This document shows, one piece after another, positions 25,241 to 39,163 of a DNA stretch of 64,000 nt. The stretch spans positions 68,747 through 132,746 of the forward strand of contig NZ_LMSP01000023.1 in NCBI RefSeq assembly GCF_001429545.1, read 5' to 3'. The stretch comes from Paenibacillus sp. Soil787 (lineage in GTDB: Bacteria; Bacillota; Bacilli; Paenibacillales; NBRC-103111). Below the pieces are notes generated by a model. It did no database searches and was not told the origin of the DNA. It worked only from the letters and a program-made list of their open reading frames with translations. Position 1 is the stretch's first letter; every line of letters begins with the position of its first letter. The translations under genes and the position numbers were made by a program.

Positions 25241-26173
25241 ATGAACTGGTTCCTTGCTTATGAGAAAGATCTTGCTGACGTATTTACAGAGGCAGAGGGC
25301 ATCATTAGCGCATTTCCAGCACCGTTAGATCACCTCGGACTTGCCTATCTAGCTACATTTGACGGGAGAAAAGAAGATAGCACTAAAAACTATATCTGTT
25401 ACCTTCTTCCATATTGGATGAAAGACATCAGTGAACTTCCGCCAGAGTCGATGAATAAACTCTCATTAGCGAATGTATTCGTAATGCTCTACTATTTTAT
25501 ACAAGACGATATTATGGATTCAGCCAAAGGTGAGCATAAGGACAAGCTGCCTCTAGCCAATTTATTTCATATGCAGTTCCTATCCATCTATAGAGATATG
25601 TTTCCTGCTGGGTCGCCTTTCTGGAGTTACTACGAGACGTATGTTACGGAGTGGTCTGAAGCTGTTTCCAATGAGCAGCAGTCCGATTACTTCCTTCAAG
25701 ACATTGTCAAAGTCGCAAAGAAAGCAAGTCCAGTCAAAAATGCCAGCACCGGCGCTCTTCTATTAGCAAACCAAGCTCACCTTATCCCTGTCGTCACGGC
25801 GGCTGTTGAACAAACGCTTATCACTTTGCAAATGCTGGATGATTGGGCTGACTGGGAAGAAGATCTGGAAGAGGGTTCTTACAACTGCTTATTAGCTTCG
25901 ATGCGTAAGCATTTGCAGCTTTCAAAGGAAAGTGTTGTATCGCCAGAAATGGTGAAGCAGCAGTTGTATGTGCATGACTTTTTGGATTCCTATGGGCAAA
26001 TCGCCACTACTCATCATGAGCAATTACTAGACTTACAGATTTCAATGACACAAATGATCAATTTCCATGATTCTCTTGTGCAAAACATTCAAAAAGTCGC
26101 ACTTGAAATCAAAGAAAATAGAAAAATGTTAGCATCAGGGGGATTCTATTATTTTTTGTCGAAATCTAGTTGA
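25241..26173 (+). CDS. Class I isoprenoid synthase-like enzyme, possible peptide prenyltransferase
   Basis: The 310-residue, mostly helical protein carries the two Asp-rich Mg-diphosphate motifs of class I isoprenoid enzymes at the expected spacing: DDIMD at 89-93 (a DDxxD motif) and DDWADWEED at 200-208. Length and motifs suit the trans-isoprenyl diphosphate synthase, squalene/terpene synthase and ComQ superfamily. No membrane segment or signal is seen. AAAGGGG lies 10 nt before the ATG. The gene is followed after 80 bp by a RiPP precursor with a terminal Trp, which raises a ComQ-like role in prenylating a peptide. Making a free terpene or isoprenyl diphosphate is the alternative. The fold is well supported; the substrate is inference. 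Confidence 0.82.
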   Translation: MNWFLAYEKDLADVFTEAEGIISAFPAPLDHLGLAYLATFDGRKEDSTKNYICYLLPYWMKDISELPPESMNKLSLANVFVMLYYFIQDDIMDSAKGEHKDKLPLANLFHMQFLSIYRDMFPAGSPFWSYYETYVTEWSEAVSNEQQSDYFLQDIVKVAKKASPVKNASTGALLLANQAHLIPVVTAAVEQTLITLQMLDDWADWEEDLEEGSYNCLLASMRKHLQLSKESVVSPEMVKQQLYVHDFLDSYGQIATTHHEQLLDLQISMTQMINFHDSLVQNIQKVALEIKENRKMLASGGFYYFLSKSS

Positions 26174-26199
26174 TTTTGCTAGATTATTCAGAATATTCA

Positions 26200-26208
26200 T
26201 GCTATAAT
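26200..26208 (+). promoter_or_regulatory. Extended -10 promoter of the precursor gene
   Basis: TGCTATAAT is a perfect extended -10 element 46 bp upstream of the precursor ATG, with no good -35. It suggests that the precursor is also expressed independently of the enzyme gene. Confidence 0.5.
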
Positions 26209-26253
26209 TTTCTTGTAGGAAAAATTACCCAATTGACTAAGGAGTGATTCGGA

Positions 26254-26493
26254 ATGTCATCCAATGAAGTATTAAAAGCGAAAATTATTCAAAAAGCCTG
26301 GGAAGATGAAGCATTCAAAAACCAGCTTATTGCTAATCCCAAAGCCGCATTAAAACAAGCATTTGGCATTACACTCCCAGATGACATCAAAGTTAAAGCC
26401 GTAGAAGAAACTTCAACTGAGTTTGTTCTAGTCATTCCTACGAATCCTGCAAAGATTTTGGTTACTACGAATGCCGTTGAATCTTTTTGGTAA
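26254..26493 (+). CDS. NHLP-leader RiPP precursor peptide
   Basis: This 79-residue peptide resembles the nitrile hydratase alpha-like leader (NHLP) family of ribosomal natural product precursors. An AWEDEAFKNQLIANP block is followed by KAALKQAFGITLPDDIKV, VEETSTEFVLVIP and a short tail. The presumed core after VIP is about 18 residues, has no Cys, and ends with Trp79. AAGGAG is placed well before the ATG. No lanthionine synthetase, cyclodehydratase, radical SAM enzyme, peptidase or exporter is nearby. The only candidate modifying enzyme is the adjacent isoprenoid synthase. It could also be a free-standing NHLP-like protein of unknown role. Confidence 0.8.
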   Translation: MSSNEVLKAKIIQKAWEDEAFKNQLIANPKAALKQAFGITLPDDIKVKAVEETSTEFVLVIPTNPAKILVTTNAVESFW

Positions 26494-26523
26494 AATAAAT
26501 AAATAAATAAATAAATAAATAAA
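26490..26523 (+). repeat. AAAT tetranucleotide tandem repeat
   Basis: About seven to eight AAAT units begin at the precursor stop codon and run into the terminator stem. Copy number may vary by slippage but does not change a reading frame. Confidence 0.8.
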
Positions 26524-26567
26524 GAAGAGGTGCCGCGCTTACGAGTCGCAGCACCTCTTCTTTATTT
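26517..26567. terminator. Strong bidirectional terminator
   Basis: AAATAAAGAAGAGGTGC and its complement form a 17-bp stem between the precursor gene and the convergent kinase gene. Confidence 0.92.
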
Positions 26568-28457
26568 TATAGTAATAGCTGGGAAACGAATGATAACCTC
26601 TGTGCCTATGTATTTTTGACTTTTGAACTCAATGTGCCCTTTCATGATTTCAATGATCCGAAAGGTGATCATTAATCCAAGCCCTGTCCCCTTCGTCTTT
26701 GTGGAATAATAAGGCTCCCCTAATTTGATCAACTGCGCGGGTTCAATCCCCTCGCCATTATCTTTGATATGAATGTACACCTCATCATTTTTAAGATAAG
26801 CCCATATATGAATCTGACCATCAACCTGAAAGGCTTCGATACTATTTTTGATAATATTAATAAGCACTTGTTTCAATTTCGATGAGTTCCCTTGTATATG
26901 CAAATCATTAGGAACACTAACGGTTATCCGCCCGCCATGTAAGGTAGCCAATGGAACAATAATACCTTCAATTTGGCTGATTTCCTTGGAAACATTTAAA
27001 TCAACGAGATCATCAAGCTGGGGCTTTGCAAAAGTCAGGAAGTCCGTAATGATAACAGAAGCCCGATCTAGTTCTTCTATCGCGATTCCCATATATTCTT
27101 TGTTCTTATCATCTGTTCTAGCAGCGACAAGCTGTAAAAATCCACGTGTTACTTGCAGAGGGTTTCTCACCTCATGAGCGACAGAAGCCGCCAATGCGCT
27201 TATGATTTCCATCTTTTCAGAGAGTTGGAGTTGATGATTGTAAAATTCAAGTTCTTTGGAATAATTAATCATATGTTCCTGATTGATGGCAAAGCGCCTG
27301 CCTAATACGACAACAATGACAATAATAAATCCGACAACTCCCCATTTCCAGAAGAAAAACTGATAGTTTTGAGAACTAGCATAGAAGTATATAAGGTCTA
27401 GAGTACTCATAAATGCTAACATGACAAAACCAGATAAGAAAATAATAGCTTCCTTGTTCCCTCTTCGTACAAGAATAATGGAGCATACAATCATTAAAAT
27501 GAACTGACTAATCATAATAAACCCCAAAACGGTAACCGATGCAAAAAAATAAACTTTGTTAAATCGATAATTACTGAGTTGATTAACGAGCATAAAAGTA
27601 ATTAAAAAAATCGAATACAGAACTTGGAATTTTCTAAACCAACGAATCAGTTTATATTTTCCGTCATCAAATATTTTTTCAAAAAAATAAGTGAGTGCTG
27701 GCAAGAAAATGGCAAGCGACATATCAAACAAAGCACTAAATAGATCGCCATAGTTCGTAAAGTTTGCGTACATGAAAGATGAATATGTAATAAAAATAAA
27801 GCCAAGCGTTAAATTAAGTATACTAACTAAAACCCAGTTTGTAAGTTGACTTTTTTTCAGGAAGAAAGAACATATCAGCATACTCGCAGACATGAAGAGA
27901 AAGGCACATCCTAGTATAATGTCCGGCAAATCTTGAAGTACAAATGTTCGCGTCAAAGCAGTGTAATCATCCAGCTTAATTGCTGAATGTATTCCTAAGC
28001 GCCCCATGGATGTCTCCAGCTTTAAATAAACGGTTTCTCCCCCGTCCTCGCTACTAATAGAAAATAAGCTTCTTTGACTATCAACTGGAAAATCAAACTT
28101 GGTTTCTCGAACTAAGCGATCACCAATATAAACCCAGAGGTTCTGCGCATGAATTCCTTCAATGTATATGCCATAGTCTTTAGGTACTTTGGACGGAAGT
28201 TGGAGCCTAATCCATGCCGAAGAAACTTCTTCCGGTTTCTCGGGAGATGATTTGCCGTTATTGATTTTAATCCATTGATTAGGGGAAGCAGTACTTACTC
28301 CTTCTAACCCCCCTGGCGGATCGCCCCACATGATGCTCCACTCTGGGATCGCTTTCATATCCACTTGATCAACGGCATAAGCATGGGAAGTCATAAATCC
28401 ATAACAAATAACCATAACCAACATCGTTTTCCAGAATACTTGAGATAACTGTTTCAT
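26562..28457 (-). CDS. 7TMR-DISM sensor histidine kinase
   Basis: The 631-residue protein has a signal peptide (about 1-28) and an extracellular 7TMR-DISM ligand domain (about 30-175, beta-rich). Seven membrane helices (about 180-395) and a HisKA domain with the phosphoacceptor in ASVAHEVRNPLQVTRGFLQL (H428) follow. The HATPase domain has NIIKNSIEAFQVDGQ and GTGLGLMITFRII. GGAGG lies 7 nt before the ATG. No response regulator is adjacent. The kinase core resembles the sporulation-type kinase at 21243, so input to a phosphorelay is plausible. It is convergent with the RiPP locus, so it could sense that product, but this rests on proximity only. Confidence 0.92.
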   Translation of the reverse strand: MKQLSQVFWKTMLVMVICYGFMTSHAYAVDQVDMKAIPEWSIMWGDPPGGLEGVSTASPNQWIKINNGKSSPEKPEEVSSAWIRLQLPSKVPKDYGIYIEGIHAQNLWVYIGDRLVRETKFDFPVDSQRSLFSISSEDGGETVYLKLETSMGRLGIHSAIKLDDYTALTRTFVLQDLPDIILGCAFLFMSASMLICSFFLKKSQLTNWVLVSILNLTLGFIFITYSSFMYANFTNYGDLFSALFDMSLAIFLPALTYFFEKIFDDGKYKLIRWFRKFQVLYSIFLITFMLVNQLSNYRFNKVYFFASVTVLGFIMISQFILMIVCSIILVRRGNKEAIIFLSGFVMLAFMSTLDLIYFYASSQNYQFFFWKWGVVGFIIVIVVVLGRRFAINQEHMINYSKELEFYNHQLQLSEKMEIISALAASVAHEVRNPLQVTRGFLQLVAARTDDKNKEYMGIAIEELDRASVIITDFLTFAKPQLDDLVDLNVSKEISQIEGIIVPLATLHGGRITVSVPNDLHIQGNSSKLKQVLINIIKNSIEAFQVDGQIHIWAYLKNDEVYIHIKDNGEGIEPAQLIKLGEPYYSTKTKGTGLGLMITFRIIEIMKGHIEFKSQKYIGTEVIIRFPAITIK

Positions 28458-28625: not shown

Positions 28626-29876
28626 TTATAATACAGTGAACAATTGACTCCTTGCAGTTACAGTCTCAGCGACAATGCGGCCTTGGCTCACTACATACCG
28701 ACAACTCGGCTGCTCACGAATAAGATCCATGGCATCATCTCCAGGCAGCAGGATAAAGCTGGCAGGATGGCCAATCTCGATCCCATATTCCTTGAGCTGC
28801 AGGGTGTTCGCTGCACGTGTTGTAATCATACGTACAAGCTCAGCCACTTCCTCACGTCCAGTCATATGTGCTAAATGAGCGGCGATATGGGCTGCTTGCA
28901 GCATATTCCCTGTTCCCAGCGGATAGAAAGGCGTCTGAATATCATCATGCGCAATGCTTACATTCACACCAGCCGCCCACAATTCCTTGATTCGGGTGAT
29001 GCCTCGGCCCTTGGGATAGCCATCGTATCTGCCCTGCATCGCACTATTGATGAGCGGACAACAAACAATATTCACACCCGAACGCACCAGCATTCCCTGC
29101 ACCTTCTGGTAATAAGCTTCACAATAATAGGCTGCAGCGTTCGCATGCGCAGCTGTTACTCGTTCGCGCAGTCCTGAACGAATCGCGAGATGGGCCACGC
29201 TTTCTAAGAACGTGGAGTGAGCATCGTCCATTTCGTCGCAAAAAACATGAACGAAGCAGCCGTGCTTTTCTGCTAGGTTGAAGCAAATCTCCAGCGAAGC
29301 CAGGCCTTCCTCACGCGTAGGCTCAAGATGCGGAATCGCTCCAATGCCATCAGCGCCAAGCTCAAGCGCTTGCTCCAGCCGGCGCTCATTATCGGGACAT
29401 GCGCGAATACCATCTTGAGGAAACGCGATAACCTGCAGGTTCATGTATGGTTTAACACGCTCACGCAAGGCAAGAAGTGCACGTAGAGCAATCAGATTTG
29501 GATCCGAAATATCTGCTTGTGTACGCACATGCAGGATACCGGCAGCCATCTGCATCCGAAGCACCTTCTCTGCTCGTTCCGTGACATCCTCGTAGGTGAG
29601 CGCTTGTTTCCGCTTTTGCCATAATCCGATGCCTTCGAATAGAGTCCCGCTCTCATTCCAGGCGGGCTCCCCCGCCGTTAGGACGGTGTCCAAATGAATA
29701 TGGGACTCCACGAACGGAGGGAGCAGCAGGTGACCAATGCCATCGATTTCGCGTTCCCCTTGTTCGGTAATACTTCCAAGCATAACGATTTTGCCGTTTT
29801 TTACACCGATATCTACAGGACTTCGGTCCTCTGAATGTCTAAACATACGCACATTACGAAATACAATGTCCAGCAG
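28626..29876 (-). CDS. Cytosine deaminase-like amidohydrolase
   Basis: The protein (416 residues from CTG) is closely similar in motif layout to E. coli CodA: LPPFVESHIHLDTVLTAGEP, SGTLFEGIGLWQKRK, HVRTQADISDPNLIALRALL, the metal His in HVFCDEMDD, and AHDDIQTPFYPLGTGNML. CodA deaminates cytosine, isoguanine and related rings. The only standard start in frame is GTG at 29852, which lacks a ribosome binding site. Eight extra codons encode LLDIVFRN as in homologues, and a CTG at 29876 follows AGAGGG by 8 nt; a TAG lies directly before it. It is the last gene of the catabolic operon. Ring deamination is likely; the exact substrate is not clear. Confidence 0.88.
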   Translation of the reverse strand: MLDIVFRNVRMFRHSEDRSPVDIGVKNGKIVMLGSITEQGEREIDGIGHLLLPPFVESHIHLDTVLTAGEPAWNESGTLFEGIGLWQKRKQALTYEDVTERAEKVLRMQMAAGILHVRTQADISDPNLIALRALLALRERVKPYMNLQVIAFPQDGIRACPDNERRLEQALELGADGIGAIPHLEPTREEGLASLEICFNLAEKHGCFVHVFCDEMDDAHSTFLESVAHLAIRSGLRERVTAAHANAAAYYCEAYYQKVQGMLVRSGVNIVCCPLINSAMQGRYDGYPKGRGITRIKELWAAGVNVSIAHDDIQTPFYPLGTGNMLQAAHIAAHLAHMTGREEVAELVRMITTRAANTLQLKEYGIEIGHPASFILLPGDDAMDLIREQPSCRYVVSQGRIVAETVTARSQLFTVL

Positions 29877-29906
29877 CTAACTCACCCTCTTTACCTTGGT
29901 GCCATA

Positions 29907-30803
29907 TTAGGTATCCTTTTTCATCTCGGATTCGTGCCACGAACTAAGCAGCCATTTGGCGAAAGCGTTGACCAATAGGAAGAAAATAATGCCCAGTGCT
30001 GATGCCGAAAGTCCACAAGCGAATAAATAAGGTGTTTTTAAACGCGCAGCGGCATACGTTATCGCATAACCAAGTCCGCCTTGACCTCCGCCGATACCGG
30101 CAATGTATTCACCGACAATAGCCCCGACTACGGATAAAGTACAAGAGATTTTCAGACCGGCTACGATATAGGGAAGGGCAGCTGGTATGCGCAGCCTCCA
30201 CATCGTTTGAATCGGATTCGCATTGTATAAATAAAACAGATTACTCATATTTTGATCCGTGGAATTTAGACCGATTAACGTATTTGAAAGCATGGGGAAG
30301 AATCCGATTAAGAATGTAATAATAACAATCGCATTCACACCTGCATCGAACCAGATCACAATGAGAGGGGCAATGGCGACAATCGGGATCGTTTGTAAAA
30401 TAATCGCATAAGGATACACACTCTTCTCAATCCATTTGGAGCTTGCCAGTAGAATGGCACCAGTAACTCCTAATATAATACTGAGGAAAAATCCAAGCAC
30501 AGCTTCCAGCGTCGTTGTCCTTACAGATACCCAGAGTCCGTGCCTGTTTTCTACGGCTGCTGCGACGATATCGGAAGGCTTAGGCACGAGATAAACAGGT
30601 GCTTTCACTAAATAAGCAATGAGTTCCCAGCCTCCAATGAAAACAACAAAGGCAACCAGCGGTGGCAAAAGATGCTTAAGCAGCAACAAAAGCCTGCGAC
30701 CTGGCGAGATCCCGTCTTCCAATCGATTAGCCCAAGCCGCCCGTTCGCGGGCAGGGAATATTTCATCCGGCAGTATTTGCAGGTATTTAGAATCTACAGC
30801 CAT
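29907..30803 (-). CDS. NitT/TauT-family ABC transporter permease
   Basis: The 298-residue membrane subunit has six predicted helices after a 40-residue cytoplasmic N-terminus. The BPD-type EAA region reads IQTMWRLRIPAALPYIVAGL, with GEYIAGIGGGQGGLGYAI near the C-terminus, characteristic of the TauC/SsuC/ThiX group. AGGGGG lies 7 nt before the ATG. It works with the ATPase at 32180 and the binding protein at 35393. It is separated from the ATPase gene by the flavoprotein gene, so the transporter genes are interleaved with enzyme genes. Confidence 0.9.
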   Translation of the reverse strand: MAVDSKYLQILPDEIFPARERAAWANRLEDGISPGRRLLLLLKHLLPPLVAFVVFIGGWELIAYLVKAPVYLVPKPSDIVAAAVENRHGLWVSVRTTTLEAVLGFFLSIILGVTGAILLASSKWIEKSVYPYAIILQTIPIVAIAPLIVIWFDAGVNAIVIITFLIGFFPMLSNTLIGLNSTDQNMSNLFYLYNANPIQTMWRLRIPAALPYIVAGLKISCTLSVVGAIVGEYIAGIGGGQGGLGYAITYAAARLKTPYLFACGLSASALGIIFFLLVNAFAKWLLSSWHESEMKKDT

Positions 30804-30820
30804 TATAAGTCCCCCTTCAT

Positions 30821-32158
30821 TTACATCTCATAAATGATTTTCCCTGGATTCAGCAGCCCTCTTGGGTCATTCTCACGCTTCTTGCGCTCCATGCTGCCAA
30901 CTTCACCACGTCCGCCGTGATCCAACACCCAGGTATGAGGATCAAATATTTTCACGCCGATGGATTCACAATATTGAATGATCTCGTATAAGCGTTCTTC
31001 GCTTTCAAAGCGAACAATCGGAAGCGAATTTGGTGATATTTCCCCACCGCTGCGTACCCATTCAAAATGCAAGTACACTTCTTCCCCATATTTATCTTTA
31101 ATCATCTGAATTTGTTCCATATAGGAATCCAGCTTAAAGCCAGCTTGCAGATACGTCATCGAAGGGTCCGTTTTCATTGCCCATAACGTCGTATGATTCC
31201 ATGTAAAATCCGACACCCCGATCGTTTTCCGGTAATTCTTAGCCTCAATCAGATGACCGATGTGCCCGCCATAGCTTTGGGCAAGAGCTTCGACTAGCGG
31301 CAGCGTATCCTCAGCAAATTCAAGCATAACAACGGCCATACCCGACTTGATCACTTTGGCAAACGGAAAGAAATATGAAGGAATGGGCCATTCCATGGGA
31401 GCAATAAGTCGTTTCAGAATAGCTTCCTCTCTAGCAAGAGCCTCACCGAATCGCATCGACTGCTCGAAGGTGTCGAAATTAGCAATAGCCTGAGCCCACT
31501 CGGTGCGAGGAGAAAGCGGGATGGTTACCTCGGTCAGAATGCCGGTAGTACCATAATTATGAATATAATCAAATAAGTCACGGCCTTGGATAACCAAGCG
31601 CTGCGGAGATTCTTCCATCGTGTAAATGACAGCTTCCAGCACATTGCCATCCCATAAGTTTCCGTGGGTAATCGAGCCGATTCCGCCGGAACCGCCGCTC
31701 ACAAAGCCGCCTACCGTTGCTTTGACATAAGTACTGGGGTATATGCGAATCTCTTGTCCGACTTCACGAGCCTTTTTATCAATTACACTAAGACGAACTC
31801 CGCATTGTAAACGAGCGTAGCCAACACCGATTTCAAGAATTTCATCCATCCGGCTTAAATCTAAGACAATACCGCCCTGCAGGGGAACCGCCTGACCATA
31901 GTTGCCTGTACCGGCTCCTCGAACCGTAACGGGAATATTGTGGCGGTAACCAAAGGCTAACACTTCAGCCACCTCAGTTTCATTGCGCGGTATAGCAACG
32001 ACATCGGCCGCTTTCATATGCTGCAATTGGCGATTAAGTACTGGGGAGTACCAGTAATAATCTTTAGAGAGCTTTTCTCTCGTTTCGGCATCGACAAACA
32101 CGATTTCTTTCGCAAGCTGCTCCTGTATCTCTTTCTCCCAGCTAATATTCATGGCCAT
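30821..32158 (-). CDS. FAD-linked oxidoreductase (GlcD/VAO type)
   Basis: The 445-residue flavoprotein has an FAD_binding_4 domain. The PP-loop is PVTVRGAGTGNYGQAVPLQG, preceded by VVAIPRNETEVAEVLAFGYR, with GGFVSGGSGGIGSITHG further on. The C-terminus is LLNPGKIIYEM. Family members oxidise hydroxyacids, alcohols or amines. Of three possible starts, the ATG at 32158 has AAAGGGTGA about 8 nt upstream. It is embedded between the ABC ATPase and permease genes of the catabolic operon, so it probably oxidises an intermediate of that pathway. Confidence 0.88.
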   Translation of the reverse strand: MAMNISWEKEIQEQLAKEIVFVDAETREKLSKDYYWYSPVLNRQLQHMKAADVVAIPRNETEVAEVLAFGYRHNIPVTVRGAGTGNYGQAVPLQGGIVLDLSRMDEILEIGVGYARLQCGVRLSVIDKKAREVGQEIRIYPSTYVKATVGGFVSGGSGGIGSITHGNLWDGNVLEAVIYTMEESPQRLVIQGRDLFDYIHNYGTTGILTEVTIPLSPRTEWAQAIANFDTFEQSMRFGEALAREEAILKRLIAPMEWPIPSYFFPFAKVIKSGMAVVMLEFAEDTLPLVEALAQSYGGHIGHLIEAKNYRKTIGVSDFTWNHTTLWAMKTDPSMTYLQAGFKLDSYMEQIQMIKDKYGEEVYLHFEWVRSGGEISPNSLPIVRFESEERLYEIIQYCESIGVKIFDPHTWVLDHGGRGEVGSMERKKRENDPRGLLNPGKIIYEM

Positions 32159-32179
32159 GAGCTTATTCACCCTTTCGTA

Positions 32180-32983
32180 TCAATGATCCAAAGCGGCAGA
32201 TACTTCACGAACTAAATCACTGAACTGCGTCGTTGTACGGAAGCTTTCATCTCGAGGAAAAGGGACGGGAATATCAAGCCTCGCCGATATTTTACCTGGA
32301 CGCGGTGTCATCACAACAACACTTGTGGATAAGAACACCGATTCGAATACGTTATGCGTGACGAATAGCACGGTCATCGACTTATCCTGCTGCCAAATAT
32401 TGAGCAGCTCCATTTGCAAGGTTTGACGTGTAATTTCGTCTAGAGCGCCGAAGGGCTCATCCATGAGGAGCAGCTTAGGTCTCGAAATGAGCGCACGCGC
32501 GATGGAGACACGCATCTTCATTCCCCCGGAGAGCTGTCTAGGCAGCACCTTCATATAGTCCTTCAAGCCGACCAGCTCCAATACGCGCTGAGCTTCTTCT
32601 TTCTGTGTCCTCTTATCTACACCGCGCAATTCAAGCGGCAATCTGACGTTAGCTTCGACCGTAGACCAAGGCAGCAGCGTATGATCTTGGAAAACAAAGG
32701 CGATATCACTTTGCTTGCGCGCTTCTTTGGGTGTCGTACCAAATACGTCTAATGTCCCTTTACTTGGCTTGGCAAGGCCAGTGATCATTTTGAAAATCGT
32801 TGATTTCCCACACCCAGACGGACCAACAAAACAAAGAAACTCCCCTTCTTGTATCGTTAGATTCACATCTTGCAAGGCAATTGTTCCGTTGGGGTACGTC
32901 TTAGACAGATTTTCCATATTTACGAATTTAGGGCCGGATACTTGTGAGTTGGATGTATGGAACAGAGAAGAATTCATAGCCAT
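32180..32983 (-). CDS. NitT/TauT-family ABC transporter ATPase
   Basis: The 267-residue ATPase is of the SsuB/TauB class: Walker A GPSGCGKST, Q-loop FVFQDHTLLPW, signature QLSGGMKMRVSIARAL, Walker B LLLMDEPFGALDE, and H-loop FVTHNVFE. AGGAGA lies 8 nt before the ATG. It pairs with the permease at 29907-30803. Substrates of this class include sulfonates, nitrate, thiamine precursors and pyrimidines; the operon context favours a nitrogen heterocycle. Confidence 0.92.
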   Translation of the reverse strand: MAMNSSLFHTSNSQVSGPKFVNMENLSKTYPNGTIALQDVNLTIQEGEFLCFVGPSGCGKSTIFKMITGLAKPSKGTLDVFGTTPKEARKQSDIAFVFQDHTLLPWSTVEANVRLPLELRGVDKRTQKEEAQRVLELVGLKDYMKVLPRQLSGGMKMRVSIARALISRPKLLLMDEPFGALDEITRQTLQMELLNIWQQDKSMTVLFVTHNVFESVFLSTSVVVMTPRPGKISARLDIPVPFPRDESFRTTTQFSDLVREVSAALDH

Positions 32984-33024
32984 TTACTTCATCTCCTGTA
33001 TGTGATTTATGGAACATTCCTCCG

Positions 33025-33837
33025 TTATTGTTCCTTTTTCAATGACGTCATCTCAAAAGCTTGAAAGGTGAGCAGCGCTTCGGCGATATGTGCACCGTAC
33101 TTTTCAGCCATCGCATGGCCTTTCGTTATCGTTGCTTGTGTGGCATCACCAGAAATGCCTGAATGAGATAAATCATCCATCACCCAAGCAAAAGCACGAT
33201 TGCGAAGGCTTAAATAACGCGAATCCGGATAATTCGGATATTCCGTAGGAGCCAGCTCCATATGAACCCAATCGGGCTTAGCCGACATCACTAGGGAAGT
33301 TTCCATATCACCCGCATGAATACCAGCCTGCTTCTCCAGCGGCGTTATCCACTCATCAGCGGCACCGAGACCGCCAGGATCTAATCGAAATACAGCCAGC
33401 CCCGTTTCAATACGGATTTCCCGACCCATCATATTTAATAAATCCGTGTTGCCCCCGTGCGTGTTCACTAGTACTAATTTCTGAAATCCGCTTTTACTCA
33501 GGCTTTTCGCTATATCCATCACAACAGCCATTAATGTAGTCGCCGATAACGTTATGGTCCCTGGATGGCCAAGGTGCTCCGTACTTTTGCCATACGGAAT
33601 GGCGGGCAGCAGCCATATATTCGCATCCTCGGGAAGCTGTTCGAAAGCCTCGGTCAAGAGGACTTCGGAAATTAATGTATCGGTAAACACTGGCATATGC
33701 GGACCATGCTGCTCGATCGCGCCAACCGGCAGAACGATAAGTGCATCATCTTTGGGAACCTGAGCAACCTCGAGCTTACTTAAACGGGGAAAAAAGCAGC
33801 GATCCCACGCTTTACCTTGATAACGATTGAATGACAA
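33025..33837 (-). CDS. Creatininase-family amidohydrolase
   Basis: Creatininase-family enzymes are metal-dependent cyclic amide hydrolases (creatinine, formylated pyrimidines and others). The 270-residue protein has the metal signature LPVGAIEQHGPHMPVFTDT (Glu, His, Asp), the VNTHGGN motif and HAGDMETSL with a metal Glu. The frame is open to 33876, but GGAGG is 8 nt from the TTG at 33837 and gives a family-like N-terminus. It is in the catabolic operon. It may open a ring or cleave an amide after deamination; true creatininase activity is only one possibility. Confidence 0.88.
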   Translation of the reverse strand: MSFNRYQGKAWDRCFFPRLSKLEVAQVPKDDALIVLPVGAIEQHGPHMPVFTDTLISEVLLTEAFEQLPEDANIWLLPAIPYGKSTEHLGHPGTITLSATTLMAVVMDIAKSLSKSGFQKLVLVNTHGGNTDLLNMMGREIRIETGLAVFRLDPGGLGAADEWITPLEKQAGIHAGDMETSLVMSAKPDWVHMELAPTEYPNYPDSRYLSLRNRAFAWVMDDLSHSGISGDATQATITKGHAMAEKYGAHIAEALLTFQAFEMTSLKKEQ

Positions 33838-33985
33838 GCTGAGCACCTCCAAGTGGGTGGATAGTAGTATACACATAAGCTCTTATGAAAAAAGACCCAA
33901 ACTCAGAGTGAAGAGCGGATCTTAAGCTTTCAATTTAGCGTCGTTCAACAATAAGGGGAGACTAACAGGTTAGCCAATTAGACGC

Positions 33986-35365
33986 TCACCCTTTCGCGAA
34001 TTCATGGTTATGGAAGGATACATTTTCGCTTGCTTCTTGCCAATAATGAGCTAAGGTCTTATCCTGCCACTCCGCTTTATTTGCAGCCATCCGCACAAAG
34101 CTTCCTTGACTATATACCCAGCGGCGTTCAGGCAGCATGGTAAAGAGCTCTTCCGGCGTACTTCCGTCTATGATAATAAAATTCGCATGATTACCAGCCT
34201 TTACCTCATAAGAAGTTAGACCGAGCACCTTGGCTGGCACATCCGTGATCATGCGCAGCAGCGTTCGAAGATCATCCGGTCGACCCATATGAGCGGCATA
34301 AGAGCCAATAAGAGCAATTTGCAATAAATCGCCTCTGCCAAAAGGATGAAAGGGATCGTGAATATTATCTGAAGCCACGGCAATAGGAATGCCTGCTTCC
34401 CAAATCTCCTTCAACCGAGTTACGCCACGTCTAACGGGGAAACTGTCTTGCCTTCCTTGCAAATACAAATTGACTGCAGGCAAGGAGACTGCTTTGAGCC
34501 TCGCATCAACCATGCGTTCAATGATGCCGTGAGCATCCTGATCCGTCATCGAAGCTAACGCACATAAATGATCGACGGTAACTCTCCCTGAATATCCCTC
34601 TGATTTCGTTCGCAATGCGATATGATCGATTGTGCGCGTAGCTGGATTGTCTGTTTCGTCGCAATGCAGATCAATCGGCACATCGTATTTCTCTGCTAAT
34701 TTGAATATAAAATCGATATCTTCCTTAGGGGTTAATGATAAATGCGGCGCCCCGCCAATCCCATCTACGCCCATCCTTAGTGCTTCCTCTACAGCATCAA
34801 CATCTAGTGACATGAAATTGTAGGGACACATCGGAAACAACTGCAAGCTGATATAAGGCGCTAAGGCTTCTTTGGCTTCCAAAGCGGCCTCAATTGTGCG
34901 TAAAGCTACTTCACGTGAGGCTCTCAAATTAAAATCAAGATGTGTACGAACATGCGTTGTTCCAAATGACAAAGCTTGCAAAGCCGAACGCATAATTCTT
35001 GATTTAATTTCATTTTTGGTAAAAAGCGGTGATGCACTTGAATAATTGCGTACGGCCTCTTCTAATGTCCCGCTCCGATTCTCAACCGAAGTTAGCGAGA
35101 AAGATTTGTCTAAATGCATATGAGCATCTACGAAGCCTGGCAGTATTATTTTCCCTTCAATGTCAATGAACGAGATGCCCGATTCACCTGTACCAAGCTG
35201 TGGTTTCCATTGTTCCAATGACATTGCATCAGAATGGGCAGCATTAGCTTCTTGATTCTGAATCTGAGTCCAAACGCCTTCACGAATCGAGAGACGAAAC
35301 AAATGCCCCTCATCCTCCATTGGCAATCGAACGTTCACTAAATCCATATTCATGATAGAAGCCAA
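33986..35365 (-). CDS. Amidohydrolase of the cytosine deaminase-like group
   Basis: A second CodA-like amidohydrolase (459 residues). It has PGFVDAHMHLDKSFSL with the HxH metal pair, FGTTHVRTHLDFN, IDLHCDETDNP with metal His, and ASDNIHDPFHPFGRGDLLQI. A Lys replaces the Thr of the usual HLDT and AGxP is missing, so substrate preference probably differs from the gene at 28626. Start choice: a GTG at 35374 abuts the G-rich ribosome site, while TTG at 35365 has about 8-nt spacing and is preferred. It follows the binding-protein gene by 27 bp. Confidence 0.87.
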   Translation of the reverse strand: MASIMNMDLVNVRLPMEDEGHLFRLSIREGVWTQIQNQEANAAHSDAMSLEQWKPQLGTGESGISFIDIEGKIILPGFVDAHMHLDKSFSLTSVENRSGTLEEAVRNYSSASPLFTKNEIKSRIMRSALQALSFGTTHVRTHLDFNLRASREVALRTIEAALEAKEALAPYISLQLFPMCPYNFMSLDVDAVEEALRMGVDGIGGAPHLSLTPKEDIDFIFKLAEKYDVPIDLHCDETDNPATRTIDHIALRTKSEGYSGRVTVDHLCALASMTDQDAHGIIERMVDARLKAVSLPAVNLYLQGRQDSFPVRRGVTRLKEIWEAGIPIAVASDNIHDPFHPFGRGDLLQIALIGSYAAHMGRPDDLRTLLRMITDVPAKVLGLTSYEVKAGNHANFIIIDGSTPEELFTMLPERRWVYSQGSFVRMAANKAEWQDKTLAHYWQEASENVSFHNHEFAKG

Positions 35366-35392
35366 TACCGCCACCCCCTGATTCTTTATCCC

Positions 35393-36487
35393 TTACTTCT
35401 TAGGTAAAAATTGCGTTGTGAACACTTTGTCGATGTTCTCTGCTGTTTTTAGAACACCTACATCAACAAGCTGCTTCTGAACTTCTGTCCAGCGTTCCTT
35501 GGTCATGACTCCTGTACCTTTGGTTGCTGCATCTCCTCCGAATACAAAGTCCATCTCTTTAGCAGCGCTAAATTTCATCATATCTAAGCTCATATCTGGA
35601 TTCTTCTGTTGGATGGAAGGATTGATCTCCTCGGAATGATCCTTGTAATAATCCCAGCCTTTAACCGTAGCTTCGACGAAAGCTTGCACTTGGTCCGGAT
35701 GTTCAGCAATCATTTTCTCCGTAGTGAAGTATACGCCAGCGTAAATGTTATAACCGGAATCGGCAACTAAGAGCGCGCCGTGCTCTACCTTTTGCTGAGT
35801 GAGCGTGAACGGTTCAGAAGTTACATATCCTTGCGTAAGAGCTTTTGGATCGCTGACAAAGTTAACTAATTGACCTGTATATTTCATTTCTTGGGCACTG
35901 TCTAATTTGTATTTCTTCTTAATAAACTGCCAGAAGCTGGCCGTTGAAGCCACATACACCTTATGTCCGTTTAAATCACCAAAATCTTTAATCGCAGTAT
36001 CTTCTTTATGATAAAACACAGCTTGTGGACTCTTTTGCATGGAAGTTGCGATAGCTACAATCGGAATACCCTCTTGTCTGGCTACTAGGATATCATCGCC
36101 ATTGGCCATACCGAATTGCGCTTTGCCTGAAGCGACGATTTGTGTAGAAGAAACCTGCGGACCACCTGGCATAAGCGTCATATCAAAACCCGCGTCTTTG
36201 TAGAACCCTTTGGCGGAAGCAGCAAAGTTCCCACCATGTTCGGGTTCTGCGAACCAGTTTAAAACAACAGTTGCAGGTACGACAGCTTTGGCAGCTGTAG
36301 TTGAAGCCGGAGATGCTGCTGGAGCAGTGGAAGCCGTCGCTTGCGCCGCTGTAGTTGGCGCTGACGTTGAAACCGAGGAGCCCGCGTTACCGCATGCGGC
36401 GAGCATACTTGAGATCATAACTAAGCTCATGGACAAAACAACTGGGCGTTTCGCTGCAAGCGGATTAGTAAGATTAAATGGTTTCAT
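35393..36487 (-). CDS. NitT/TauT-family ABC substrate-binding lipoprotein
   Basis: The 364-residue protein has a lipoprotein signal (LAAC, Cys32). An Ala/Thr/Ser/Pro-rich spacer of about 35 residues follows, then an NMT1/THI5-like binding domain starting VVLNWFAEPEHGGNFAA, with YVASTASFWQFIKKKY and KALTQGYVTSEPFTL. The VLNWxxxPxH beginning resembles binders of thiamine-pyrimidine precursors and other heterocycles. GGAGGGG lies 9 nt before the ATG chosen. It heads a seven-gene transcription unit with its own promoter. Confidence 0.9.
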   Translation of the reverse strand: MKPFNLTNPLAAKRPVVLSMSLVMISSMLAACGNAGSSVSTSAPTTAAQATASTAPAASPASTTAAKAVVPATVVLNWFAEPEHGGNFAASAKGFYKDAGFDMTLMPGGPQVSSTQIVASGKAQFGMANGDDILVARQEGIPIVAIATSMQKSPQAVFYHKEDTAIKDFGDLNGHKVYVASTASFWQFIKKKYKLDSAQEMKYTGQLVNFVSDPKALTQGYVTSEPFTLTQQKVEHGALLVADSGYNIYAGVYFTTEKMIAEHPDQVQAFVEATVKGWDYYKDHSEEINPSIQQKNPDMSLDMMKFSAAKEMDFVFGGDAATKGTGVMTKERWTEVQKQLVDVGVLKTAENIDKVFTTQFLPKK

Positions 36488-36546
36488 ATTAGACTTCCCC
36501 TCCATATTTGGTTTTCTCTACAAAAGAACTTATCAATCTTTAGTCA

Positions 36547-36576
36547 AATATAGAGTTGATGGCCTGTTCAAGTCAA
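36547..36576 (-). promoter_or_regulatory. Predicted promoter of the binding-protein operon
   Basis: On the minus strand TTGACT and TATATT are separated by 18 bp, 60 bp upstream of the binding-protein start. Confidence 0.55.
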
Positions 36577-36688
36577 CGAATATACTAACGTTTTGTATTT
36601 TCACACAATAAAAGTACGTCTTTTCATTACTTTCACAAGACTCATTTTAAATAAATGCACAAATATCTCATAAAACACGAACATTCAC

Positions 36689-37684
36689 TCAAATTACTCC
36701 AACAACCACGCCTAATTCTTTCAACCAACGACGATATGCAATGGAGAACCGGTCTACCTTATGGTTGAGTTCGACCTGCAGATCCAGCGGAAGCAGCTCC
36801 GGTTTCTGCGTCTCAATTACCCTCGCATCTTGTTCAAACACGATATCCTGGAAGCGAATAAAATTCGCATCTACTACGTCATAGGCATAATTCCGTGAAA
36901 CCATCATGAACACGACACATTCTTCTGCGGCTACAGGCAATACCGTCAACATAATCCACAAGGTTTGGCCATTACTTGGATCTGCTTTGGACAATCGTGC
37001 GGATAAGGGCCGATAAACTTCTTTCATATAGACGTAAGTCGTCCCTTCACTCTTATCCGAGCCGGAATGGGCAACCGGTTGAAAGATCGGAATATTTTCG
37101 ATATAAATGCGTTCCTTCTCCTTGATCACCTGAAAGTCGGGGAGCTCTGCATAGTCGGGGTGCCCGAGCAGATTCTGATGGACGAACATCAAATGTGCAA
37201 AGTCGGTGAAATTCTCAATAACTCTCGTTCCAGCTGCCTTAACTTTGTAGGGCCCACATGGCAGTGGACGAAACACCGGATTAGCAAACTCTTCAAAATG
37301 AGGCAAAGGTGCCACGGGTTCGCCTATACATACCCAGATGAAGCCGTATTTCTCTTCACAGGCATAGGTTTGCGCTTTAGCTCTGAGAGGAATTTTCTCC
37401 CCCTTGGGCTGCGCTGGAATACAGACACATTGCCCAGATGAATCATACTGCCAACCATGGTATGGACAGACGAGAACATCGTCTTGTACCCATCCTTTGG
37501 AAAGCATGGCTCCACGGTGAACGCATAGATCTTGCAGCGCATGAACCCCTTTGCTAGAGCGGTAAATGGCTACTCTTTCACCCAAAATGACGACACCCAC
37601 AGGTTGGTCTTTCAGCTCAGACGCGAGGTGCACAGCATGCCAATCATTTTCAAGTACAGGATCATGTAGACGTTGTAAAGCCAT
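36689..37684 (-). CDS. Rieske non-haem iron oxygenase, alpha subunit
   Basis: The 331-residue protein has an N-terminal Rieske [2Fe-2S] domain (C54, H56, C73, H76 in CVHRGAM and CPYHGWQY). Its C-terminal catalytic domain has iron ligands H164 and H169 and the bridging D161 in ENFTDFAHLMFVHQ. Such enzymes hydroxylate or O-/N-demethylate aromatic and heterocyclic compounds. AGGAGG lies 9 nt before the ATG; an ATG three codons earlier directly abuts it. No ferredoxin or reductase gene is adjacent, so electron donors must be encoded elsewhere. It follows the amidohydrolase gene at 37741 and shares its promoter. Confidence 0.92.
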   Translation of the reverse strand: MALQRLHDPVLENDWHAVHLASELKDQPVGVVILGERVAIYRSSKGVHALQDLCVHRGAMLSKGWVQDDVLVCPYHGWQYDSSGQCVCIPAQPKGEKIPLRAKAQTYACEEKYGFIWVCIGEPVAPLPHFEEFANPVFRPLPCGPYKVKAAGTRVIENFTDFAHLMFVHQNLLGHPDYAELPDFQVIKEKERIYIENIPIFQPVAHSGSDKSEGTTYVYMKEVYRPLSARLSKADPSNGQTLWIMLTVLPVAAEECVVFMMVSRNYAYDVVDANFIRFQDIVFEQDARVIETQKPELLPLDLQVELNHKVDRFSIAYRRWLKELGVVVGVI

Positions 37685-37740
37685 TGAAATCATCCTCCTT
37701 AGCGTTTATGAAAATTGGTTAGCGCAAGCTTTAAAATGAA

Positions 37741-39126
37741 TTACTCTATATTTGAGAAAATAGGATATTGCCCAGCCAGCTTATTGCGCAGAGCATCCAC
37801 CCTTGCTTGGGCTCTTTGTAGGATTTCTTGCTCATCGATCCACGTGCTCATCCCCTTCTCCACAACAACATGACCGCCAACAATAACGAGATCAACATCA
37901 TTGCCGTTCGCGTTATAAACTAGCGCTGAAGAAGCGCGATGCACGGGACTAATGTGTGCTTTGAGCATATCTACGGTCACTAGATCTGCCTTCTTGCCTG
38001 GCTCAAGACTGCCCAAATCAGCACTCCTCCCAACTGCCTTAGCACCATTCACAGTAGCCATACGCAGCACATCCATCGGCGGCAATAAGGTAGCATCCAG
38101 TTCATTCACCTTATGCAAGCATGCCGTGAACTTCAGCACTTCCAAGTTATCTTGACAATTATTACTGCCAGGGCCATCCGTACCTAAGGCAACGTTAATG
38201 CCCATTCGCAGCATTTCAGGTACTCTGGCAACACCAGAAGCTAAGTACATATTGGATACTGGACAATGGATGACGGAAGCTTGCTTTGCACGAATCAATT
38301 CTAGTTCTACATCATCAAGCCACACACCATGAACAACCTGCGTTTGCTCGCCCAGCAGCCCAACTTCATTCAGCAATTCCAAATTACGCAGGCCATAACG
38401 GGCCATCGTCGTGTCGATCTGTTCGCTTGTTTCCGCAACATGTACATGAGAAATCAGCTTGCGATCCCGGCTAAAGACTGCCGCCCTCTCGAGATAACCT
38501 CTGGAACATCCATATAAATTAAGCGGTCCAAGTGCAATTCGAATCCGACCGGAAGCAGCCCCATCCCATTCATCGAGCAATCGATCTGTACTCTCGAAGA
38601 TCTGTTCTTCTGTCTCCCTTAATCGGACTTCTCCCGCCAAATCCGAGCCGCCTCTGGCCAAATGTCCGCGAATCCCTGAATCCACCATCGCTTGCAGTAC
38701 ACTCGCATCATTCTCTGGATACGTGTGGATATAATGGTGATCCATCAAATATGTCGCGCCCGACTTCAAATTTTCGATACACCCGATTAAAGCAGCCAAA
38801 TAAAAATCTTCAGGTTCCATCGCGAGACTCATCGGCCAAATAATCCCCTTCAGCCACTGTGCGAGCGGGGAGTGATCCGATACCCCTCTCATGAACGTTT
38901 GAAACAAATGGGTATGACCATTGATGATCCCGGGAATGACGACTTTACCCGAAGCATTGTACGTATACGCAGATTGTGAAAGTAAATGGTCCAAGCTCCC
39001 GTCGGATCTCCATTCCCCCACTTCACGGATCACATCATGCTCCATATACACATAGCCGGGTTTGAAAATCTGATTGGTGGCATTCATGGTCAACACCGTA
39101 CCGTTGTAAATTAACTTGTTTGACAA
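37741..39126 (-). CDS. SsnA/TrzA-type amidohydrolase (probable heterocycle deaminase)
   Basis: The 461-residue protein belongs to the amidohydrolase branch of guanine, 8-oxoguanine, S-adenosylhomocysteine and triazine deaminases. It shows VVIPGIINGHTHLFQTFMRG (HxH pair), HVHVAETSEQI, VVHGVWLDD, HCPVSNMYLASG and ALGTDGPGSNN (metal Asp). The ribosome site AGAGGTGG is 4 nt from a TTG at 39126, which gives the expected N-terminus SNKLIYNGTVLTMN. It is the first gene of the cluster, directly behind the Lrp-type operators. Confidence 0.9.
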   Translation of the reverse strand: MSNKLIYNGTVLTMNATNQIFKPGYVYMEHDVIREVGEWRSDGSLDHLLSQSAYTYNASGKVVIPGIINGHTHLFQTFMRGVSDHSPLAQWLKGIIWPMSLAMEPEDFYLAALIGCIENLKSGATYLMDHHYIHTYPENDASVLQAMVDSGIRGHLARGGSDLAGEVRLRETEEQIFESTDRLLDEWDGAASGRIRIALGPLNLYGCSRGYLERAAVFSRDRKLISHVHVAETSEQIDTTMARYGLRNLELLNEVGLLGEQTQVVHGVWLDDVELELIRAKQASVIHCPVSNMYLASGVARVPEMLRMGINVALGTDGPGSNNCQDNLEVLKFTACLHKVNELDATLLPPMDVLRMATVNGAKAVGRSADLGSLEPGKKADLVTVDMLKAHISPVHRASSALVYNANGNDVDLVIVGGHVVVEKGMSTWIDEQEILQRAQARVDALRNKLAGQYPIFSNIE

Positions 39127-39142
39127 GTTACCACCTCTCTTC

Positions 39143-39163
39143 AATGTTATGTAAGCTAACATT
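39143..39163. promoter_or_regulatory. Candidate Lrp-type operator 1
   Basis: AATGTTA and TAACATT are perfect 7-bp arms around a 7-nt spacer in the leader of the amidohydrolase gene. Confidence 0.55.

Follow-up and report, generated by a model that had tools for sequence, protein, structure and literature searches.

A palQXP locus in Paenibacillus sp. Soil787 predicted to encode a tryptophan-prenylated NHLP-leader peptide beside an orphan histidine kinase

The palQXP locus and its published counterpart

We analyzed a 64,000-nucleotide stretch of Paenibacillus sp. Soil787 (contig NZ_LMSP01000023.1, positions 68,747 to 132,746 of the forward strand; hereafter the window) and found in it a unit of three genes, palQ, palX, and palP. 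palQ (25241..26173, + strand) encodes a 310-residue putative tryptophan prenyltransferase of the class I isoprenoid fold, with a first aspartate-rich motif (FARM), DDIMD, at residues 89-93, Q197, and a second aspartate-rich motif (SARM), DDWAD, at residues 200-204 within the longer DDWADWEED (200-208). After a gap of 80 bp, palX (26254..26493, + strand) encodes a 79-residue, cysteine-free precursor that has an NHLP leader and ends in AVESFW, with Trp79 at the C terminus. An earlier note on this DNA had described both open reading frames (ORFs), their motifs, and their spacing exactly as we found them; it omitted the third gene, palP (26562..28457, - strand), which is convergent with palX and encodes a 631-residue orphan histidine kinase with a predicted β-sandwich ectodomain, seven transmembrane (7TM) segments of the 7TMR-DISM type, and HisKA and HATPase_c domains.

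The same note had proposed a possible new prenylated RiPP (ribosomally synthesized and post-translationally modified peptide) system. The ComQ-like chemistry on an NHLP leader that it envisaged is very likely right, but the system is not new: published work already describes both the chemistry and the three-gene locus. Miyata et al. (2023; PMC10853753) reported that PalQ of Paenibacillus alvei transfers a prenyl group in vitro to C3 of the indole in PalX's C-terminal Trp, that it takes dimethylallyl, geranyl, and farnesyl diphosphates (DMAPP, GPP, and FPP), and that the product is a tricyclic pyrroloindole. In P. alvei, palQ, palX, and the gene for the histidine kinase PalP form a three-gene cluster, which is conserved in various Paenibacillus together with the leader and the terminal Trp (PMC10853753). 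We recovered the P. alvei DSM 29 record AMBZ01000001 (locus L113), from the genome cited in that paper, and compared it with the window. The two loci share the three genes, the enzyme fold, the motif positions, the NHLP leader, and the C-terminal Trp; identity is 139/309 (45%) for the enzyme, 38/73 (52%) for the leader, and 261/594 (44%) for the kinase. They differ in the core, DNVRRFFW as published for P. alvei versus ESFW in the window.

By orthology, we consider it very highly probable that the window holds a palQXP locus whose PalQ would prenylate Trp79 of PalX. The earlier note's proposal would have failed had the enzyme acted only on free isoprenyl diphosphates; the P. alvei orthologue acts in vitro on the C-terminal Trp of a peptide (PMC10853753). 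Our own evidence consists of the gene pair, the triad, the conserved residues, the predicted fold, and the conservation of the Trp, while prenyl transfer, the C3 site, and the tricycle are carried over from the orthologue as characterized by others.

PalQ retains the residues and predicted fold of a trans-prenyl synthase

Residues D89, D93, Q197, D200, and D204 of PalQ were invariant among 20 relatives, down to 30% identity, and their numbering is that of P. alvei PalQ (PMC10853753) when aligned with the DSM 29 enzyme. The predicted structure, a monomer model, has the trans-prenyl-synthase fold, one of the class I isoprenoid-synthase type. Pfam and NCBIfam gave PalQ no name, with a DUF5685 match staying below threshold, and a sequence comparison with the PDB yielded, in the 60 of its 149 matches that were listed, nothing but chance helical similarity (hemagglutinins, with E values of 0.016 and worse). 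Database names such as "terpene synthase" and "polyprenyl synthetase" occur among the 120 of 352 relatives listed; 60 of these 120 entered the structure alignment.

Enzyme, precursor, and kinase stay together while their surroundings change

We followed the unit through two sets of loci that share species and are not independent: 48 loci from genomes of the family (L002-L049) and 80 named loci (L052-L131), the best 80 of 209. The enzyme was present in 42 of 104 genomes of the family, at 48 loci, and an NHLP ORF adjoined it at all 48, so the palQ-palX pairing is not due to chance. The named loci gave 78/80 for the precursor, and the co-occurrence in relatives on which the earlier note's proposal hung was thus borne out in both sets. 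NHLP matches were found in 49 of the 104 family genomes, seven of which were without a palQ-type enzyme. A PalP-like kinase accompanied the enzyme at 47/48 loci, the exception (L028) being a short locus, and the longer L070 from that contig has the kinase 1.2 kb further on. Among the named loci, 78/80 had the kinase (best match per locus at least 462 bits), placed tail-to-tail beside palX in 75 and only upstream of palQ in three. At L120, which is without a precursor, the contig ends ∼280 bp after the enzyme.

The flanks were not conserved. The MarR gene upstream of the window's unit was found at 4/80 named loci and the adjacent transporter at 3/80, and of the seven window neighbors tested beside the trio, kinases not counted, none was kept beyond 10/80. 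Phylum-wide, 6 of 398 sampled genomes matched, including the window's own, and the other five had the genes in the same order. No enzyme relative was detected on viral contigs scanned with both enzyme alignments.

As a separate observation, a second PalP-like kinase lies near the first at named loci such as L074, L078, L081, L091, and L116, and 21/80 named loci have at least two kinases scoring over 400 bits.

PalX ends in a conserved tryptophan behind a hypervariable core

PalX scored 76.6 bits against the leader model TIGR03793 (leader_NHLP; cut-off 50.9), in agreement with the leader type assigned in the earlier note, and its genome contains no other NHLP match at E ≤ 0.001. Its Pfam matches up to E 1 were NHase_alpha, Frankia_peptide, and DurB-like; ComX was absent from them. 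In its leader PalX resembles the precursors of NHLP-leader RiPPs such as proteusins and thiazole/oxazole-modified microcins (TOMMs), and Paenibacillus NHLP precursors have been filed as TOMM or proteusin (PMC7343975, PMC11594732). Unlike in those systems, none of their modifying enzymes was found near palX, as the earlier note had also remarked: Pfam listed no YcaO, lanthipeptide, or radical-SAM domain among 25 ORFs of at least 140 residues overlapping 12-40 kb (together spanning 9.4-40.9 kb) and three smaller ones.

The conservation of the Trp, which the earlier note had set as a check, was pronounced. It stood among the last three residues in all 77 readable precursor tails of the 80 named loci, as the last residue in 61, the second-last in 13, and the third-last in three. 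In the first locus set (L002-L049), 61 NHLP ORFs had Trp last in 39 and second-last in 21; the single miss is a 46-residue NHLP-like fragment without Trp (L027/L067), which is excluded from the named-locus counts. In an alignment of 75 precursors, the window's and those of 74 named loci, the Trp column was invariant (75/75), whereas positions 72-78 were hypervariable, with 2.7-3.4 bits of entropy, among the highest in the alignment. The alignment omits L090 and L120 (no precursor), L113 (tail unreadable in frame), and L092, L104, and L112 (kinase upstream only), and the precursors of these last three do end in Trp.

From the position of this variability we place the core at residues 63-79 (26440..26490, + strand; TNPAKILVTTNAVESFW), with an approximate boundary. 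P. alvei lysate cuts PalX between T72 and D73 (PMC10853753); cleaved likewise, within the same approximate boundary, the window's core would be about TTNAVESFW, which is short and acidic rather than cationic.

A proposed scheme for PalX modification

We propose that palX may be transcribed from an extended -10 promoter of its own, located in the palQ-palX spacer, and that PalQ would then bind the NHLP leader of PalX so that Trp79 enters a pocket of the isoprenyl-diphosphate-synthase type. A prenyl group would be moved from an allylic diphosphate, with C10 or C15 by analogy the likelier natural donors, to indole C3 of Trp79, and the backbone amide would close the ring to give a tricyclic pyrroloindole. 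Removal of the leader, at a site predicted from P. alvei, would leave a short prenylated C-terminal peptide, which may be exported and then sensed by PalP.

Several observations weigh against this assignment. A Foldseek search of the PalQ model against the PDB gave nothing at E ≤ 0.001 (best 1.6e-3), and PalQ is only 45% identical to the proven enzyme. The P. alvei D200A/D204A double mutant was still active in an end-point assay (PMC10853753), so the presence of D200 and D204 is not proof of catalysis. In P. nasutitermitis, a complete-looking palQ (L090:4989-5951) stands without a precursor or a kinase within 5 kb. Finally, the deposited palX frame of P. alvei DSM 29 (L113:6008-6295) leaves the published core DNVRRFFW after DNVRRF.

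The proposed scheme has a parallel in the Bacillus subtilis ComQ/ComX/ComP/ComA system, where an isoprenoid-fold enzyme likewise modifies a Trp near the precursor C terminus and a membrane histidine kinase adjoins (PMC4008528; PMC10853753). The parts differ, however. The window precursor is without a ComX domain and has an NHLP leader instead; the ComX Trp is internal and that of PalX terminal, and PalQ has a SARM that ComQ is without (PMC10853753); PalP has HisKA (PF00512) rather than PF07730, behind a 7TMR-DISM sensor; and the window locus has no counterpart of the response regulator ComA. We rejected membership in ComQXPA, since the precursor domain, the kinase domain, and the missing regulator all disagree with it.

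A 2026 review places PalQ, ComQ, and ChrPC together among peptide prenyltransferases that resemble trans-prenyl synthases (PMC13290415). The P domain of ChrPC and Ord1 are described as Trp prenyltransferases of this kind that have in common a Gln immediately preceding the SARM, but their substrates differ, being an internal Trp for ChrPC and free Trp for Ord1 (PMC13290415).

Natural variants and remote relatives

Precursors in which Trp is followed by a short tail were clade-bound on the enzyme tree, a quick tree with several long branches (5 changes versus a shuffled mean of 20.3). The tails themselves varied freely (examples are S, P, D, GD, M, V, R, I, E, Q, TP, and L). Such clades are unexpected, because P. 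alvei PalQ became inactive when Ala extended the C terminus (PMC10853753). There is, in our estimate, an even chance that at these loci a carboxypeptidase trims the tail beforehand, giving the enzyme a C-terminal Trp to act on; the effect of the Ala extension and the free variation of the tail letters both favor this. However, a clade-bound trait also fits enzymes adapted to a non-terminal Trp, and PalQ has been described as showing low activity with a Gly-flanked internal Trp (PMC13290415). The question does not concern the window, whose PalX ends in Trp.

Six genomes, each of which has the first enzyme clade as well, contain a second one (L043-L048; 30-33% identity), whose loci have one to four precursors each, all ending in Trp plus one residue. 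At L149:5983-10406 (P. cellulosilyticus), one PalQ-like enzyme stands with five tandem NHLP precursors and a convergent PalP-like kinase, the precursors ending in YTWV, FVWI, YNWL, YVWF, and FIWT (again Trp plus one residue). At L050:625-2900 and L051:5976-8252, a precursor and a close PalP relative are found, with no enzyme match in the respective 9.0- and 16.2-kb stretches; both genomes have a full locus elsewhere. In the open literature, supplements and subscription papers aside, we found no description of Trp-plus-tail clades, multi-precursor cassettes, or enzyme-free loci, nor of a pheromone role for PalX or a cyanobacterial pairing; some PalX and PalQ variants may appear in the supplement of PMC10853753. 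The natural variants, with one or two residues after Trp or several precursors per enzyme, are on offer for enzyme studies.

Further afield, the 13-kb plasmid unnamed6 of Tolypothrix sp. PCC 7910 (L148:1-1115) carries a distant PalQ homologue, 26% identical over 70% of the query. Its gene spans the record start, and 29 bp after it lies a gene annotated as encoding an NHLP protein of the Os1348 family, in which a Trp is internal (PHVNWRVD); this is a single pairing. The Tolypothrix enzyme family comprises 63 proteins, two of them named Anaerolineae, and a profile comparison shows it to be clearly homologous to PalQ (E 7.8e-37). The family retains an LLDH..DW motif and, for the most part, QDDL; at the position of Q197 it has Val.

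PalP and the possible role of the peptide

PalP matched HisKA (PF00512) and HATPase_c in Pfam, with 7TMR-DISM_7TM exactly at its cut-off (29.0 bits), and an AlphaFold2 model of the N-terminal 400 residues predicted the β-sandwich ectodomain. PF07730, the ComP-type kinase domain, was not among its matches up to E 0.01. No Response_reg match was found within the window, the nearest lying ∼50 kb from palP. In the same genome, a response regulator was present within 4 kb for 3/19 close kinase-domain paralogues of PalP, versus 37/39 distant ones. PalP thereby shows a trait of the KinA-E-type sporulation phosphorelay, an orphan kinase without a response regulator of its own. No NCBIfam sporulation kinase model exceeded its cut-off for PalP; the KinD model was the second-best match, at 141.4 bits versus a cut-off of 775 and over the kinase part only. 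We regard PalP as an orphan, phosphorelay-type kinase that may feed a sporulation-type phosphorelay.

We also compared evolutionary rates across the unit. In the window's five-genome group, the ratio of nonsynonymous to synonymous polymorphism (pN/pS) was 0.06 for the leader and 0.45 for the core of PalX, 0.42 for the PalP ectodomain, 0.37 for its 7TM part, 0.09 for its kinase domain, and 0.17 for the enzyme. In three other groups the core again exceeded the leader and the ectodomain again exceeded the kinase domain, but the core ratios were lower (0.21-0.24), and one of these groups had a core equal to the kinase domain (0.21) and below the enzyme (0.24). For a control membrane kinase unlinked to palX, the ratios were 0.17 (membrane part) and 0.06 (kinase domain); this is one kinase, from the window's genome and three of its four relatives, with one sequence incomplete at the start. 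For two further membrane kinases tried as controls, the four genomes yielded no orthologue at E 1e-80. In rank-based partial Mantel tests, core versus ectodomain, after accounting for enzyme, kinase domain, and leader, gave 0.03 (not significant), and core versus 7TM gave a small 0.12 (p 0.008), with larger values for core versus kinase domain (0.43 to 0.50). On the pN/pS and Mantel results, fast evolution of core and sensor is therefore supported, mainly in the window's own group, and matched change of the two is not.

The best-supported purpose, to which we give a little under an even chance, is that the mature prenylated peptide would be a pheromone sensed by PalP, making a ComQXP-like circuit out of an unrelated leader and kinase. 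The kinase at 47/48 and 78/80 loci, mostly tail-to-tail beside palX, argues for this, as do the enzyme-free loci that keep precursor and kinase. The high pN/pS of the core and of the PalP ectodomain and 7TM part, set against the low values for leader and kinase domain and the lower ones of the control kinase, points the same way, and the orphan status of PalP and its close paralogues, with KinD as second-best model far under its cut-off, is consistent with a phosphorelay downstream. The main points against a pheromone are the weak covariation of core and sensor and the sugar-domain-like PalP ectodomain, which may have a carbohydrate role.

More broadly, and tentatively, PalQXP may be a genus-wide prenylated-pheromone system of the Paenibacillaceae, an analogue of ComQXP built from unrelated parts, namely an NHLP leader and an orphan kinase of the 7TMR-DISM type that feeds a phosphorelay like that of sporulation. 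Its cores would be species-specific, and it would include multi-signal cassettes of one enzyme and up to five precursors as well as enzyme-free satellites of precursor and kinase. Its enzyme superfamily would then reach Cyanobacteria and Chloroflexota, where at least one member has as its neighbor an NHLP protein of the Os1348 type whose Trp is internal.

That the product is instead an antimicrobial or surface-active lipopeptide, with PalP only regulating its production or sensing damage, appears unlikely. The residues before the Trp are variable, and geranylation by PalQ is reported to raise the potency of membrane-active peptides (PMC13290415), both of which would suit such a product; on the other hand, none of the seven neighbor genes tested was kept beside the trio at more than 10 of the 80 named loci, and a core cut as in P. 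alvei, its boundary being approximate, would be short and acidic rather than cationic. Finally, an ordinary terpene or prenyl-diphosphate synthase for which the small protein is not a substrate would agree with the fold and with the names given to relatives, yet is very improbable in view of the constant pairing, the invariant Trp, and the P. alvei biochemistry.

In the literature covered, this way of prenylating a peptide has been demonstrated in vitro for a single species, and its natural purpose is not stated. A constant trio of enzyme, Trp-ended precursor, and orphan 7TM kinase amid changing surroundings, with core and sensor evolving fastest, turns a curiosity of enzymology into a testable signaling question. 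The labels "terpene synthase," "TOMM," and "proteusin" may be corrected for such genes.

Intergenic elements and neighboring genes

The palQ-palX spacer (26174..26253, + strand) contains TGCTATAAT with TATAAT at 26203-26208, an imperfect GGTAAAATTACC-like element, and the palX ribosome-binding site. The extended -10 and the GGTAAAATTACC-like palindrome (26200-26253) are kept across an alignment of 12 sequences, just 5' of the ribosome-binding site; the former is perhaps palX's own promoter, judging from its sequence, and the palindrome a possible operator or RNA element. A promoter scan of 24.9-28.7 kb gave 7 predictions versus 12.1 expected in shuffles, that is, below chance. Between the palX and palP stops (26494..26563) lie an (AAAT)n run and a GAAGAGGTGC...GCACCTCTTC palindrome, likely a bidirectional terminator by its arrangement; a simple terminator scan of 24.9-28.7 kb flagged none, this palindrome included. 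Rfam gave no match in the window at the gathering threshold.

Beyond palP, on the - strand at 28626-39162, is a catabolic-looking run of genes for amidohydrolases, a creatininase-like protein, a Rieske oxygenase, an NMT1-type binding protein, and an ABC transporter; the first three genes of the run lie near palP at 8-10 of the 80 named loci.
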